A DNA stretch of 22,931 bases from a virus: the IMG/VR virus record IMGVR_UViG_3300048017_000106, positions 1 through 22,931 of that record. One strand, written 5' to 3'. Each line of letters begins with the position of its first letter. Positions within the stretch are counted from its first letter, which is position 1. The position numbers and the translations under genes are program-made. This document shows, in pieces, positions 925 through 16,636 of this stretch. The notes beneath the pieces were generated by a model. That model was given only the letters and a program-made list of their open reading frames with translations, was not told where the DNA came from and did not search any database.

Positions 925-956
925 CAAATATAACACCTTTATTTTGATTGTGCAAA
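925..956 (-). promoter_or_regulatory. Bacteroidota-type promoter
   Basis: On the minus strand TTTG (956-953) is followed after 20 bases by TATATTTG (932-925). This fits the known Bacteroidota consensus of a TTTG or TTG box near -33 and TAnnTTTG near -7. It stands in a 183-base noncoding gap just downstream of the late-operon terminator and 43 bases before the 882 start codon. It would drive the genes running from 882 to base 1. The spacing and exact boxes make it one of the better-supported sites in the window. Confidence 0.7.
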
Positions 957-995: not shown

Positions 996-1029
996 AAAAA
1001 AAACCGCTCACCAAACGGCGAACGGCTTT
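996..1029 (-). terminator. Rho-independent terminator of the late operon
   Basis: In the minus-strand RNA the arms at 1029-1017 and 1012-1000 form a 13-bp stem with a GUUU loop (1016-1013). All 13 positions pair, counting three G-U wobbles. The stem runs into a tract of eight U residues (1003-996). It lies 36 bases after the stop of the last appendage gene (1066-1485) and before the promoter at 925-956, so it separates two transcription units. Confidence 0.85.
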
Positions 1030-8204: not shown

Positions 8205-8735
8205 TTATCCTAATTTCGCTAAAAGTGATTTAACCCACTCCCTTACTTGCTTTTTCAGCATCGAAGCTGATTCGTCTGATGTTATATACTCAAACCCAAA
8301 ACCCAAAATTAAACCCACTAAAATAGTGCCTTCTTTCGTTTGCAAATATTTGATGTTTTCAGCAAAAACCCAATTTGGATTCGAAATTGAGTAACTTGTT
8401 AAAATTGCAAATACTACGACATTAAATATCGCTGCCATTATCGGCCTGAACGCTTTTAGAGTTAATTCACTTTTTGTAAATGGTTGTACACCCTCCACCT
8501 TTTCGACAAACTTTTTTTGTCTTCTGTATAACTCTAAAAGCGAATAAATTAAGTTAGCAATAAACCCATAAATAAACGCTTGGTAGCTAAATATGTGGAT
8601 CGGAAATATTGCATCTATTGACCACTCCGAAAGTAAATATGTTGACGCAAAGCTAAACCCAATTATTGCTATTTTTTCTTGTATCATGTCATTAAGTATA
8701 TTAAAAGCGGTATTCAATATATTACTTTTGTACAT
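8205..8735 (-). CDS. Four-pass membrane protein next to the endolysin, main holin candidate, 176 aa
   Basis: This gene immediately follows the M15 peptidase gene, the classic place for a holin in this gene order. Hydrophobic segments lie at about residues 21-38, 47-69, 98-118 and 135-151. Between the second and third is a charged cytoplasm-like loop (RRQKKFVEKVEGVQPF), and the C-terminal helix is basic (KKQVREWVKSLLAKLG). It is larger than most holins. Position and topology support a lysis role, and no specific holin family can be claimed from the sequence alone. Confidence 0.6.
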   Translation of the reverse strand: MYKSNILNTAFNILNDMIQEKIAIIGFSFASTYLLSEWSIDAIFPIHIFSYQAFIYGFIANLIYSLLELYRRQKKFVEKVEGVQPFTKSELTLKAFRPIMAAIFNVVVFAILTSYSISNPNWVFAENIKYLQTKEGTILVGLILGFGFEYITSDESASMLKKQVREWVKSLLAKLG

Positions 8736-8746
8736 TACCGTTTTTT

Positions 8747-9190
8747 TTATACTAGTTTGTATTGTGTTTTTCCGCCTTTTTTTGTCGCTACCATATTTTC
8801 ATTCCTATTTAATGCACTATTATAGCTGATATGAATCCAACTATCAAACTCCTGTATCAACTGGTCATAATTAATATTGCTTTTCTTAATTATCTCAAAT
8901 ACTTCCTGAACTGTTAATCCAATTACTTTAAAATCACAGGCTTTGCCCTCTACATGTTGGCTGGTTAAAGCCCCGCCAATCCCTTTATTAACTCTTTTGC
9001 ATCGGTATCCACTTGTAATTATTATCGGCTTTTTAATTATTTCCCTAATCGGTTCTAATACATTAATTGCCAACTTTTTAAGGTTCTGAATAACTGCATC
9101 GCTTACCCTCCATTGTTCCTCAATACTATGCCTAATTGCATACTCTGATACAGTTAACTCCTTTAATGTAAAGTTTTCGCTTATTTGCAT
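8747..9190 (-). CDS. M15-family zinc peptidase, endolysin
   Basis: The 147-aa protein cuts peptide cross-links of peptidoglycan, most likely as a D-Ala-D-Ala carboxypeptidase/endopeptidase of the M15 family, and should release progeny. The diagnostic motifs are SGYRC (60-64), SQHVEGKACDF (77-87) and WIHIS (118-122). H79, D86 and H120 are the expected zinc ligands, and an acidic residue before the WIH motif (E114 or D116) would be catalytic. There is no signal peptide, so it needs a holin to reach the periplasm. The length is normal for a single-domain M15 enzyme. It heads the lysis block, just after the structured gap at 9191-9366. Confidence 0.92.
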   Translation of the reverse strand: MQISENFTLKELTVSEYAIRHSIEEQWRVSDAVIQNLKKLAINVLEPIREIIKKPIIITSGYRCKRVNKGIGGALTSQHVEGKACDFKVIGLTVQEVFEIIKKSNINYDQLIQEFDSWIHISYNSALNRNENMVATKKGGKTQYKLV

Positions 9191-9200
9191 ATTTTATTAT

Positions 9201-9307
9201 TTAATGCAAAATATTAATAATCTTTTACGGATTTGATACCGTCTCAGGTAGATGCGCATGGAGCGAATCCGTTATTTCCGCCTGAACCCGTTAATACTTT
9301 GCATTAA
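9201..9307 (-). other. Nested inverted-repeat element, possible structured RNA with pseudoknot
   Basis: This lies in the 176-base gap between the 528-aa tail gene and the endolysin gene. The outer arms are 9201-9217 and 9291-9307, 17 bases with one non-Watson-Crick position that is a G-U pair in the minus-strand RNA. Inside, 9227-9235 can pair with 9264-9272 (seven contiguous pairs, one mismatch, one pair), and 9243-9248 with 9281-9286 (six pairs). These two inner helices interleave, so they would form a pseudoknot closed by the outer helix. An 8-base palindrome atgcgcat (9252-9259) sits in the middle. The centre is more GC-rich than its surroundings. No reading frame covers it. A regulatory RNA, a processing site or a DNA-level element are all possible, and I recognise no known class. 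Confidence 0.5.
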
Positions 9308-9366
9308 TCCAATTTAAAAGTTATTTTATACTTTCTTTTATTTTTTACGAATTTATACGAAATTAA

Positions 9367-10953
9367 TTAATACACCGCCCCACCCGTTAAATATTGCTTT
9401 CCTATAATCACGCCCGACCCATCTAATTGAAATGCCATGTTAAGGCTTGGCTCAAAATAGAAGCCTGCTGGCCCTGCTTTTGTTTCGTCCAATGGATTAT
9501 CGTTAACATATACAACACCGTCTATATCCCAAGTCAAGCTACTCCAAATTAAAGTATCTTTTGCTAATAATGTATTTGGCCCTCGTAATACTGCATCGGC
9601 TAAACTTGCATAAATTGTCTTAGTCGCTGGCGTTTGGTTCGTTGTATCAATTACATAGCCGCTCCAATAACTGTACGGCGTGCCTGCTGTGGCCCCGTTT
9701 GCGTTTTGGTCAATAATTAATACCGTATTTGTTGCCCCTGTTTTTAACCATATTCCATTTCCAACTACTGCTATATTATTTGCATCGCCATTATTGAAGT
9801 AATTAAAATAAAAATCATTTAAGTTAGCGTAATCGGTTACTGCGCCTGAATATAAATCTACGTTTTTAACATCAATCGAATATTCTCGCTCCAAATAGCC
9901 TGATATATTTCTGGTGTTATTCGTTGGAGTGAATATCAGTTTATTCTGCCTCATATCTTCTGCATCTGGCACGTAGGCAGGAACTTGTGGAAATACTTTT
10001 ACCTTTGCTGTGCAAAAACTTTCTCCAAAGCCATCACTTTGCGCACTGGCAACTATCCACTTTTCAGCAGGGTCTGTATTAATATCTAAAGACGAAAAAT
10101 TAAATTCTATTTCGCCATTATCAGCCGAAACTTGGCTCGAAATAATAGGGTCGCTTTTATAGGCTTTGTAACGATATTTTACATAAACTTTTCCCGAAAT
10201 TGTAACCGTTCCATCGGCAACCGCTGGATATAATGCCCCTAGCTTGGTATCATCCATTTGGAAGTTCCAATATATTCTGACTATATCGCCCTTTGTTGCT
10301 CTTACTTTTACTGTTGCCGTTGTATCAACATTTACCTTTTTGAATATTATTTGAGGTGAAATACTGTTGGCCTTGGATGGTAATGTTGCCAAATATGCAT
10401 TCAAATTCACATAATTACGGCTAACCTGTGGCGTGCCTGAACTATCCAACATCATTGTCCAAATGGTATAATCATTATGAGGCAAATATAAGGCAGGGTA
10501 GTTATTCTCATCGGCTGCCTGGTTTCTGTACCATTCTTTTCCAATCGAATAAACCGAAGTCGCATCTGGGTTCGTCACCCAAGCAACATCAACTTGAACA
10601 GATGTAGCGAACCTTTCTATAATATTTCTCGTCTGCCCTGCTCCTGTACCGCTTACAATATGTATTTTTGAATACCATATCCATTCAAATTCCGTTGCAT
10701 TAAATACCTTGCTTGTATCGTAAAGCCTATCACTTGTGCCACTTGTGGCCGTTCCTGCTACTGTTGGAGGTATCAAATCTGGAATATTGCCTGACCTAAA
10801 CATTAAATATTGGTTCTTAGGTTGTACGTCCAGAGTTGGATCACCCTGCATTTGAGCAAAAACTCCCAATTTCGTAAAATGGTGGTTTTTGCCCGACCCT
10901 ACATAAGGTTTGTAAGGCTCTAAATAATTTATTTGCGTTACTAAAGTTGGCAT
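9367..10953 (-). CDS. Large tail or appendage structural protein, 528 aa
   Basis: This is a soluble, beta-rich protein (MPTLVTQINYLEPYKPYVGS at the start) without signal peptide or membrane segments. Residues about 66-138 contain HIVSGTGAGQTRNI followed by VDVAWVTNPDATSVYSIG, a strand-turn module I know from many phage tail-fibre and virion proteins (G-A-G-Q-x-R...PD.TS.Y). The C-terminal part (GFYFEPSLNMAFQLDGSGV) suggests another beta domain. It is the last gene of the tail-tip block. It may attach to the tip assembly together with the two preceding gene products, but its exact role is unknown. Confidence 0.7.
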   Translation of the reverse strand: MPTLVTQINYLEPYKPYVGSGKNHHFTKLGVFAQMQGDPTLDVQPKNQYLMFRSGNIPDLIPPTVAGTATSGTSDRLYDTSKVFNATEFEWIWYSKIHIVSGTGAGQTRNIIERFATSVQVDVAWVTNPDATSVYSIGKEWYRNQAADENNYPALYLPHNDYTIWTMMLDSSGTPQVSRNYVNLNAYLATLPSKANSISPQIIFKKVNVDTTATVKVRATKGDIVRIYWNFQMDDTKLGALYPAVADGTVTISGKVYVKYRYKAYKSDPIISSQVSADNGEIEFNFSSLDINTDPAEKWIVASAQSDGFGESFCTAKVKVFPQVPAYVPDAEDMRQNKLIFTPTNNTRNISGYLEREYSIDVKNVDLYSGAVTDYANLNDFYFNYFNNGDANNIAVVGNGIWLKTGATNTVLIIDQNANGATAGTPYSYWSGYVIDTTNQTPATKTIYASLADAVLRGPNTLLAKDTLIWSSLTWDIDGVVYVNDNPLDETKAGPAGFYFEPSLNMAFQLDGSGVIIGKQYLTGGAVY

Positions 10954-13420: not shown

Positions 13421-16400
13421 TTAATTTGTTGTACAAGTTGCCCCTGTTGCCTGTATTATTCCCTTATCTGTCAATCCCGTTGCGCTTGGTGTTGCGTTAC
13501 CTGTGCCATTCGTTTGCAATGAATCACCACTTCCCAAAGTTGAAATAGTTTTATAACTAGCTAAAATAGAATCTACCGACCCTTGTGTTAATAGGTTGTT
13601 TGCAAAATCATAAGCATTGCTATTCGCTATATTTAGCCCAAACCCACCTGAAAAACCTGTTAATTGGTTGGTATTTAAAGCTAATATCCTTAGTTTTGTG
13701 TTACTACTAAAACTTGGAACCGTTCCTGAAAGTTGGTTAAAGTTTAATTGCAATACTGTTAAATTTGTATTACTTGAAAAACTTGGGATAGTTCCACTTA
13801 GTAAGTTACTATTTAAGTACAATGCTGTTAAATTTGTATTACTTGAAAAACTTGGGATAGTTCCACTTAGTAAGTTATTGTAAAGACTTACAACCTGTAT
13901 ATTACTTGCAAAGCTTGGGATATTGCCTGTTAATTGGTTGTTGTTTAATTGTATTTCGGTTAATCCTGTATTTGCATTAAAATTAGGTATAGTTCCTGTA
14001 AGTTGGTTATTGGGTAAATATAACCATACCAATGATGTGTTACTCGCAAAACTTGGAATTGTGCCTGTTAGCTGGTTATTGGTTAATATTAAATATTGCA
14101 AAGAAGCATTGTTGCTAAAGCCAGGGATTGCCCCCGTTAATTTATTATTTTGTGCGTTTAAAGATGTTAAGCTAGTCAATAAACTAACATTAAACGCACT
14201 TACATTATTACTACCTCCATTAAAGCTTAAAATAGTACCCCCCACAATATTAGAAACGCTGATATATCTTGGACCTGTTGTTGCGTAATTATGCTGATTA
14301 ACACCGTTTACCAAAGTACTAGAACTTCCATCGCCCCAATTTATAACTCCGCTTGTAGCATTTAGGCTAAACCATGCCCGACTTACACCCCCGTTTGAAC
14401 TATTTTCATCAATTCCCGTAATGCTAAATGTAAAGTAATTGCTAGGAATATCAACCCAAAACCAAGGCGGCTCTAATGCCGTGCTTGTAGGTGTTGTGCT
14501 ATATGGCACATTTCGCCGTATTGATTCTTTTACCCCCTCATTATAGATAAATATATCATAACTGATATTGCTAGCACTTTCAACAATTTCATAAGCTGTA
14601 ACCCTCATTTGTGCCGTTCTGTAATCCCTGTTTTGGATCGAACAAACCACAAACTCCATTCCTGCCATGTCGCTAAACCCGCTTGCATCAAATTTCATCA
14701 CATCGCCAACCTGTAACGTATGTGAAAAGCATTCTAACTGAACCTTTAAAAACGACCTGCTAAATTGAACCTGCTTTTCCAAAAGAGGTAATAACAACAT
14801 ATGTTCGGCAACTATCGAATCTAATGTGTATTGGCTTGTTTCTACGTTTGTTGCATCGTAAACAGAACAAGGAATTAAATCCAGCGAATTATCACAGAAA
14901 TACATATCTTGCTTTGGTGCTACTACTGTATGCTTTCCCGTGATTGTGCTTTCGTACGTAACTTCGTCAATTCCCTTTGGCAATTTAATAATGGTAACTA
15001 CTGGAGGATGAAATTGGAACAAATCGCCATGCTGTGAATCACTCGAATAAGTAGGATAAAAAAAAGGCTCAATTAATATTTGCAAATATCCATCTACAGG
15101 GCATGGTTGGCTATTATAATTTGCGCTTATTACAAGGTTTTGTGTATTGGTAGCATTTAACCCAGCTAATGTGTTATCCTGTTGTGTTGGGCTTGGGTTT
15201 GAATCAACATAAAATTTAAAATTACCCCTTTGTAATCTCAATCTGCCAAGCCCAAATACGTGCCATTCTCCATTTTCAAATAAATACCATTTTTCCCCTT
15301 CTTTCGTTTCAACAAAAACTTTAAACGCTAAATTATTTACTTGCCAAACGGATGCTTGTTTTAGTGAATGCCCATAAGGTACACTAAAATTTATTTCCGT
15401 TCCTTTTCTGATTTGGCTCTTACTAGATAGCAACCCTGCCCCCGCTGTTGATGTTGCTTTATTAATTACTAATACCTTGTTATTATATGGAAAACCTCCG
15501 TATTGCCTTGTGCCATCCAAGCTATCCCAAGAGGCTTTTAACGTACCCATATACTCGTCTGAAAATGTCAATAATGAACATTTTAACGTGCCTATGGTAG
15601 TCCAACCTGAAAATGATATATTGTTTTCTTGTGTGTCAACTCCTAATAATGTCGATAAAACTATTGGCTCACTTGCACCCGCTGTATAATATTCGAGTTG
15701 CTCGTTTTCAAATAATAATGTCTGATTAAACTTTGTCGATAAACTTACTCTTTTATATGGTGCATTAAAATATCTCTGTGCCGTTCCCGAAGCTAAATCC
15801 ACATCCTCACCATCGCCAACCATTTTATAAGTTGATTCTGTAATATCACTTTGGTACACCCCTGCATTATTATACAAGTTATAAACCCGTGTCGATTTTC
15901 TGTACTGGCTGAAAGGCACGAACCAAAAAGCGCCATCCTTTTGAAAGAAATGAGCAAAATCTTTTGTACAAAGTTGCTCTAATATTTTCTTGCAACTGAA
16001 AGGAGTTCGATCTGGATTAAAAAATCTTAACTGGCTAATTTTCTGCTTTTCTAAAACTCGCCCGCTTAAAGCTGGACTTGAAAAATTGCCCGCTGCAACC
16101 AAGTTTAACCCTAAACCCGTTATCCTGTTAATATTGCTTAATATCTCTATTATGGTAGCCTTGCCGTATAGTTTACGGTCTGAACTATCTCTATATTCTT
16201 GATTTTCTAAAGTACCAATACCATCTGAAAAAGTTAATTGTAAATCGCTAACCTTGGCATTAAATATTTCATTCGTACTTGATAAGTCAGTTAATAACCA
16301 ACCTTTGAACTTTACTGCGCCATCAAGTTTTAATGTACCTCTAAATTTACGTTCATCATCTGTTACAAAATTAATCAGCTTACTAAAGGCATTTGTATTT

Positions 16401-16636
16401 TTAATATTTACAATGCATTTTGTGCTTATTAATTGAAAGTCTTTATTTTCGGTGTCGGGTATCTGCTCAATTATAGGTGCTGTTGCCGACTTGAAAAAAT
16501 ACACATCATTATTCAATGGGTCTAGCTGCTCAATCTCAAATACTCCATCTTTGGCTACTGCACCATTCAATCCACGCCCTGCGCCTGTGGCACGGGTTTT
16601 AAACTCAATTTTATATTTCAGAACGTATACTCCCAT
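13421..16636 (-). CDS. Tail tip protein with C-terminal PKD-like domain and leucine-rich repeats, 1071 aa
   Basis: The gene directly follows the tape measure gene, where siphophages encode the distal tail or tail-hub (Tal/gp27-like) proteins. The first 150 residues include FRGTLKLDGAVKFKGWLLTD and VSDLQLTFSDGIGTLEN, a strand pattern seen in tail-hub proteins. A PKD-like domain (about 735-810) shows INWGDGSS (W767) and HNYATTGPRYISV. Residues 822-1003 are eight LRR units of about 23 residues with an LTGxIPSF core. A short tail rich in Gly/Thr follows. A hub carrying an LRR receptor-binding module is inferred. LRRs are common on Bacteroidota surfaces but less usual at phage tail tips, so transfer from a host gene is possible. 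Confidence 0.82.
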   Translation of the reverse strand: MGVYVLKYKIEFKTRATGAGRGLNGAVAKDGVFEIEQLDPLNNDVYFFKSATAPIIEQIPDTENKDFQLISTKCIVNIKNTNAFSKLINFVTDDERKFRGTLKLDGAVKFKGWLLTDLSSTNEIFNAKVSDLQLTFSDGIGTLENQEYRDSSDRKLYGKATIIEILSNINRITGLGLNLVAAGNFSSPALSGRVLEKQKISQLRFFNPDRTPFSCKKILEQLCTKDFAHFFQKDGAFWFVPFSQYRKSTRVYNLYNNAGVYQSDITESTYKMVGDGEDVDLASGTAQRYFNAPYKRVSLSTKFNQTLLFENEQLEYYTAGASEPIVLSTLLGVDTQENNISFSGWTTIGTLKCSLLTFSDEYMGTLKASWDSLDGTRQYGGFPYNNKVLVINKATSTAGAGLLSSKSQIRKGTEINFSVPYGHSLKQASVWQVNNLAFKVFVETKEGEKWYLFENGEWHVFGLGRLRLQRGNFKFYVDSNPSPTQQDNTLAGLNATNTQNLVISANYNSQPCPVDGYLQILIEPFFYPTYSSDSQHGDLFQFHPPVVTIIKLPKGIDEVTYESTITGKHTVVAPKQDMYFCDNSLDLIPCSVYDATNVETSQYTLDSIVAEHMLLLPLLEKQVQFSRSFLKVQLECFSHTLQVGDVMKFDASGFSDMAGMEFVVCSIQNRDYRTAQMRVTAYEIVESASNISYDIFIYNEGVKESIRRNVPYSTTPTSTALEPPWFWVDIPSNYFTFSITGIDENSSNGGVSRAWFSLNATSGVINWGDGSSSTLVNGVNQHNYATTGPRYISVSNIVGGTILSFNGGSNNVSAFNVSLLTSLTSLNAQNNKLTGAIPGFSNNASLQYLILTNNQLTGTIPSFASNTSLVWLYLPNNQLTGTIPNFNANTGLTEIQLNNNQLTGNIPSFASNIQVVSLYNNLLSGTIPSFSSNTNLTALYLNSNLLSGTIPSFSSNTNLTVLQLNFNQLSGTVPSFSSNTKLRILALNTNQLTGFSGGFGLNIANSNAYDFANNLLTQGSVDSILASYKTISTLGSGDSLQTNGTGNATPSATGLTDKGIIQATGATCTTN
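13628..14173 (-). repeat. Eight-unit leucine-rich repeat array (about 69 bp per unit)
   Basis: This encodes residues 822-1003 of the tail tip protein. Unit starts fall at residues 822, 845, 868, 891, 913, 935, 958 and 981; units 4 and 5 have 22 residues and the others 23. The consensus is xLxxLxLxxNQLTGTIPSFxSNT. Units 6 and 7 differ from each other more in the exposed strand positions (TALYLNS against TVLQLNF) than in the SGTIPSFSSNT core. This is as expected if the exposed face contacts a receptor. Confidence 0.85.
13756..13877 (-). repeat. Tandem 53-bp identical direct repeat inside the LRR array
   Basis: The 53 bases at 13756-13808 are identical to 13825-13877, one 69-bp repeat unit apart. 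Identity extends over silent positions, so the duplication is recent or kept uniform by recombination. The remaining LRR units are more divergent. Copy-number change by slippage or unequal exchange would keep the reading frame. Confidence 0.85.

Follow-up and report, generated by a model that had tools for sequence, protein, structure and literature searches.

Why does the late operon of this virus open into a long gap directly before its endolysin gene, and does the large inverted repeat within that gap (positions 9201-9307) act as an RNA on the expression of the lysis gene? The window, by which we mean the whole stretch of 22,931 nucleotides analysed, is a virus record of 22.9 kb, whose minus strand carries the late operon: the gene of an HK97-type capsid (PF05065), those of the tape-measure protein and the tail, an M15 endolysin, with small genes following it. 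The nearest annotated relatives of the capsid belong to a Leeuwenhoekiella phage (53%) and to Cellulophaga phages, so the host is probably a member of the Bacteroidetes. Between the upstream late gene (9367..10953, minus strand), which is without family match, and the gene of the M15 peptidase (8747..9190, minus strand; PF08291, E=2e-23; PHROG 894 endolysin, E=3e-44) lies a gap of 176 nt (9191-9366). It holds no ORF of 60 aa, in agreement with the sequence-only reading of this DNA, which had seen no gene there. The same reading had called the gap the only long noncoding stretch inside the operon; it indeed is the longest, but a second one of 123 nt follows the capsid gene. A longer noncoding stretch (883-1065) lies beyond the late operon and comprises a terminator-like intrinsic hairpin with a T run, read by eye (996..1029, minus strand), followed by the Bacteroidetes-type promoter of the next operon (925..955, minus strand; TTG N20 TATATTTG), which together mark where the late operon ends and the next transcript begins. 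At 9191-9366 we found neither a promoter of this type, on either strand, nor an intrinsic terminator, i.e. a G+C-rich hairpin followed by a U run, and transcription would presumably run through the gap. Two further features of the operon should be mentioned here: the gene at 8205-8735, just downstream of the endolysin, contains a perfect 14-bp inverted repeat (8451-8464 / 8529-8542, 64 nt apart), and the tail protein of 1071 aa encoded at 13421-16636 (minus strand) has a leucine-rich repeat domain at its C-terminus (LRR_4, E=1e-17), an unusual fusion which may serve as a module for receptor binding.

The sequence does contain the outer inverted repeat. Outer arms of 17 bases had been reported, and 16 of the 17 positions do pair between 9201-9217 and 9291-9307, with 73 nt between them; no second repeat of this quality (16/17 matches, loop up to 100) exists in the window. 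Read on the minus strand, the 5′ arm (9291..9307) is UUAAUGCAAAGUAUUAA and the 3′ arm (9201..9217) stops 10 nt short of the start codon of the endolysin. The lone mismatch becomes a G.U pair on the minus (mRNA) strand and an A.C on the plus strand, slightly favouring an RNA read in the direction of the operon; judging from the letters, the rescue by G-U pairing is confined to the strand that would be transcribed. Enclosed by the arms is a core of 73 nt (9218..9290, minus strand), which with 48% GC is far GC-richer than the flanks (7-16%). Not one of 1500 shuffles of the whole gap matched the outer stem, and only 0.13% did so when the AT-rich flanks and the GC-richer core were shuffled separately; the chance of the outer stem arising within the gap is about 0.001. 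This low value, the composition of the core and the exactness with which the stem abuts the endolysin landing site speak against a fortuitous inverted repeat in an A/T-rich spacer, which would have no function and whose inner helices would be unremarkable short matches within GC-richer sequence. The probability of such an accident nevertheless is considerable. In dinucleotide-shuffled windows, 0.05 repeats of this kind are expected per window (3/60 shuffles), and the fold z-score, at -4.55 striking when taken by itself, is unexceptional for this genome, as the segment at 9201 ranks 15th of the 1141 scanned across the window.

What sets the hairpin apart is its place. The outer stem is predicted to be stable, with a probability of about 0.91-0.97 in the nested ensembles of several mRNA contexts. 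Folding 220 nt around each of the 29 starts in the window, we found the region -30..-11 of the endolysin to be the most structured of all (0.12 unpaired, as compared to 0.28 in the next and a median of about 0.5), while its positions -12..-1 are among the most open (0.83 unpaired in local folding). The landing site before the AUG (9191..9200, minus strand) consists entirely of A/T. By virtue of this stem probability and of the extreme value at -30..-11, a stable mRNA stem adjoins the initiation region, as is characteristic of the type of control known from gene e of phage T4. The control of lysis genes suggested by the sequence-only reading hence is plausible, a strong hairpin being situated directly upstream of the endolysin gene and occupying an extreme position among the starts; the pseudoknot that had been part of the suggestion finds no support on the mRNA strand, as detailed below.

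We therefore regard a hairpin that acts in cis to hold back or adjust the translation of the endolysin within the late operon as the best-supported reading, albeit a tentative one, closely followed by chance. The gap would encode this hairpin within the polycistronic late mRNA, with the 17-bp A/U-rich stem closing the GC-richer 73-nt domain and a small inner hairpin therein. The start itself would remain open and A/T-only, which would suit Bacteroidetes ribosomes initiating without the use of Shine-Dalgarno pairing. Lying where the initiating ribosome has its upstream edge, the stem would have to open transiently or be opened before initiation could be efficient, so that endolysin output may be held below that of the structural genes encoded on the same transcript, and this restraint could serve the timing of lysis. 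What tunes initiation in Flavobacterium johnsoniae is not Shine-Dalgarno pairing but the structure of the mRNA near the start, together with A residues upstream of it (PMC6847099), and a stem placed in this region is therefore likely to matter. In phage T4, structure over the start of the lysozyme gene e lowers gene e synthesis approximately 100-fold (PMC3014915). In both cases, a hairpin in a phage mRNA lies at the start of a lysis gene whose product degrades the cell wall, and is presumed to hold its translation back; however, the T4 helix sequesters the Shine-Dalgarno sequence or the AUG and late transcripts start inside it (PMC3014915), whereas the stem described here ends 10 nt before the AUG of a gene in the late operon with no visible internal promoter. 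The two hairpins show no sequence relation and are not homologous. Since the start codon is left uncovered by the stem, the degree of inhibition is uncertain.

The stem could also be put to other uses within the same transcript. It sits on the boundary between the tail and the lysis module, where a cut by RNase III or a block to exonucleases might give the tail portion of the transcript a half-life separate from that of the lysis portion, and the processing of phage mRNA at intergenic hairpins is established for coliphage T7. RNase III, though, prefers stems of roughly two helical turns, and the present one is shorter, A/U-rich and interrupted by one G-U pair; we consider a processing or stability element unlikely. 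Less probable still is translational coupling or attenuation by means of a putative leader ORF of 20 codons (9197..9259, minus strand; MRIYLRRYQIRKRLLIFCIK). This frame crosses the 3′ arm and its stop lies 6 nt before the endolysin AUG, so ribosomes translating it could open the arm and load onto the endolysin start immediately downstream, but twenty open codons are nothing unusual and the ORF shows no sign of conservation.

Inside the outer stem, two interleaved pairings had been proposed, and a minus-strand RNA was said to fit all three helices with G-U pairs. This is true for the outer stem and for candidate helix B (9243-9248 with 9281-9286), which fits the minus strand with one U.G, but not for candidate helix A (9227-9235 with 9264-9272), which is crossed by helix B: from the sequence and a crossing-helix search, helix A is complete on the plus strand with one G.U, and carries a C.A mismatch at its eighth pair on the minus strand. 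In the nested mRNA ensemble, helix A has a probability of about 0 and helix B of at most 0.27. To assess a possible pseudoknot, we searched the loop for the pair of crossing helices with the best stacking energy and compared this pair with shuffles. On the minus strand, this pair reached -22.8 kcal/mol of stacking and 5.8% of the shuffles were equally good; on the plus strand, it reached -27.4 kcal/mol and only 0.3% of the shuffles did as well. The MFE of the loop showed no improvement over shuffles (39%). A pseudoknot on the mRNA strand is not supported, and both the MFE of the loop and the minus-strand result for the crossing pair speak for a repeat that arose by chance.

The better fit of the crossing helices to the plus strand would speak for an element acting there or at the DNA level, be it an antisense RNA with a plus-strand pseudoknot or else a recombination site or short mobile element bounded by terminal repeats of 17 bp. 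Choosing the better of two strands post hoc weakens this test, however, and on the plus strand the outer stem has to accommodate the A.C; the gap holds no Bacteroidetes-type promoter. In addition, the paired arms are absent from all other IMG/VR contigs and recur nowhere else in the window, where only matches with 3 mismatches are found. Taken together, we judge an element of this kind improbable, more so than a processing site. The least probable of all the explanations considered is a phage-specific pseudoknotted RNA outside Rfam, which would switch conformations and so time endolysin synthesis in the late operon of a phage whose host ribosomes dispense with Shine-Dalgarno pairing.

The statement that the element matches no known RNA class held up under the covariance-model search which had been recommended along with it: Rfam 15 gave no match at gathering score in the whole window, and at E 10 only three chance-level matches (E 3.6-8.9) in 9150-9370. 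The crossing two-helix layout at first sight resembles the HDV-like (theta) ribozymes of phages (PMC10879173). Their nested double pseudoknot (P1-P2-P3-P1'-P2', with the catalytic C before P2') yielded no layout on the minus strand, though, and there is neither a tRNA in the window nor a ribozyme among the Rfam matches at E 10; on the plus strand, the descriptor returned 6 loose layouts, and the five printed do not use the reported helices. A hammerhead ribozyme (CUGANGA and GAAA core) was likewise rejected, as CUGANGA does not occur on either strand of 9150-9366. The leader of T4 gene 32 (PMC3014915) offers another parallel in being a pseudoknot-capable leader of a phage gene, but its pseudoknot is a protein-bound autoregulatory site, while the one considered here is unsupported on the mRNA strand.

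For a comparative test, we searched for relatives of the gap in Rfam, annotated phages, plasmids, IMG/VR, about 160 M15-peptidase loci and several hundred Bacteroidota genomes, finding no homologous gap in any of them. DNA similarity to phages and plasmids was restricted to short A/T-rich or coding matches, neither the exact core 22-mer nor the paired-arm pattern was found in IMG/VR, and the peptide reading of the core (plus-frame SFTDLIPSQVDAHGANPLFPPEPVNTLH) gave no match. The proteins of the upstream gene, the tape measure and the next tail gene led to no relatives. Through the capsid we reached 26 loci from distant phages; the best 13 revealed neither the tape measure nor the gap and just one M15 gene, and the lysis region of the annotated Leeuwenhoekiella relative differs. 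Two isolated matches, one of 18 nt in a distant capsid-relative locus and one of 22 nt to an arm in a Bacteroidota genome, were without partner arm and were dismissed as chance. The gap upstream of the gene could be measured at 158 M15-peptidase loci; its median is 2 nt, and a stem with 16 matches occurs at none of them. The few long upstream hairpins among these loci are unrelated to the one in the window. Most of the M15 relatives lack a gap altogether, so the structure does not accompany the endolysin gene as a conserved feature, and the hairpin is specific to this phage or to kin outside the collections searched. The absence of relatives in itself argues neither for nor against function, but it removes the argument from a conserved RNA. 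It is also in keeping with a chance repeat and, since no homologue means no covariation, it counts against a translation-tuning hairpin, as do the unexceptional rank of the fold z-score, the whole-window chance expectation of about 0.05 and the fact that most related M15 genes lack such a gap.

Taken alone, this single unreplicated hairpin changes little. If it does restrain endolysin translation, it would represent a clear-cut example of lysis being controlled by RNA where the host of the phage lacks Shine-Dalgarno-led initiation. The best-known examples bury the Shine-Dalgarno sequence and thus cannot simply be applied to such a host.

While testing the M15 loci, we came across a conserved noncoding element in Ignavibacteria MAGs (copies at L034:2204-2322, L035:2206-2324, L036:24-142, L037:2199-2330, L039:2168-2287, L041:2223-2342, L042:2143-2257 and in L200-L235), which is unrelated to the endolysin hairpin, as its covariance model R1 has no match in the window. 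Its core of about 119 nt comprises a two-part 26-bp stem with a GUUGGGACU-type loop, with more conserved sequence 3′ of these. The element had no match in Rfam even at E 1 and apparently is undescribed so far. Of the 164 genomes of one Ignavibacteria order, 34 contain this RNA according to R1, at 53 places, and in 36 aligned copies 94.8% of the cells pair. The covariation is strong: double-changed cells number 109, whereas shuffles gave 37 and slid controls no more than 27, counts which lean towards the model because the alignment was fitted to it. The RNA is not M15-specific, 12 of the 36 copies being near an M15 gene. In the non-M15 loci read, an SNase gene usually is found on one side, whereas the other side varies (Fic, AbiEii, DUF3800, DUF1016/YhcG nuclease), a placement reminiscent of the border of a site with variable cargo or defence genes.
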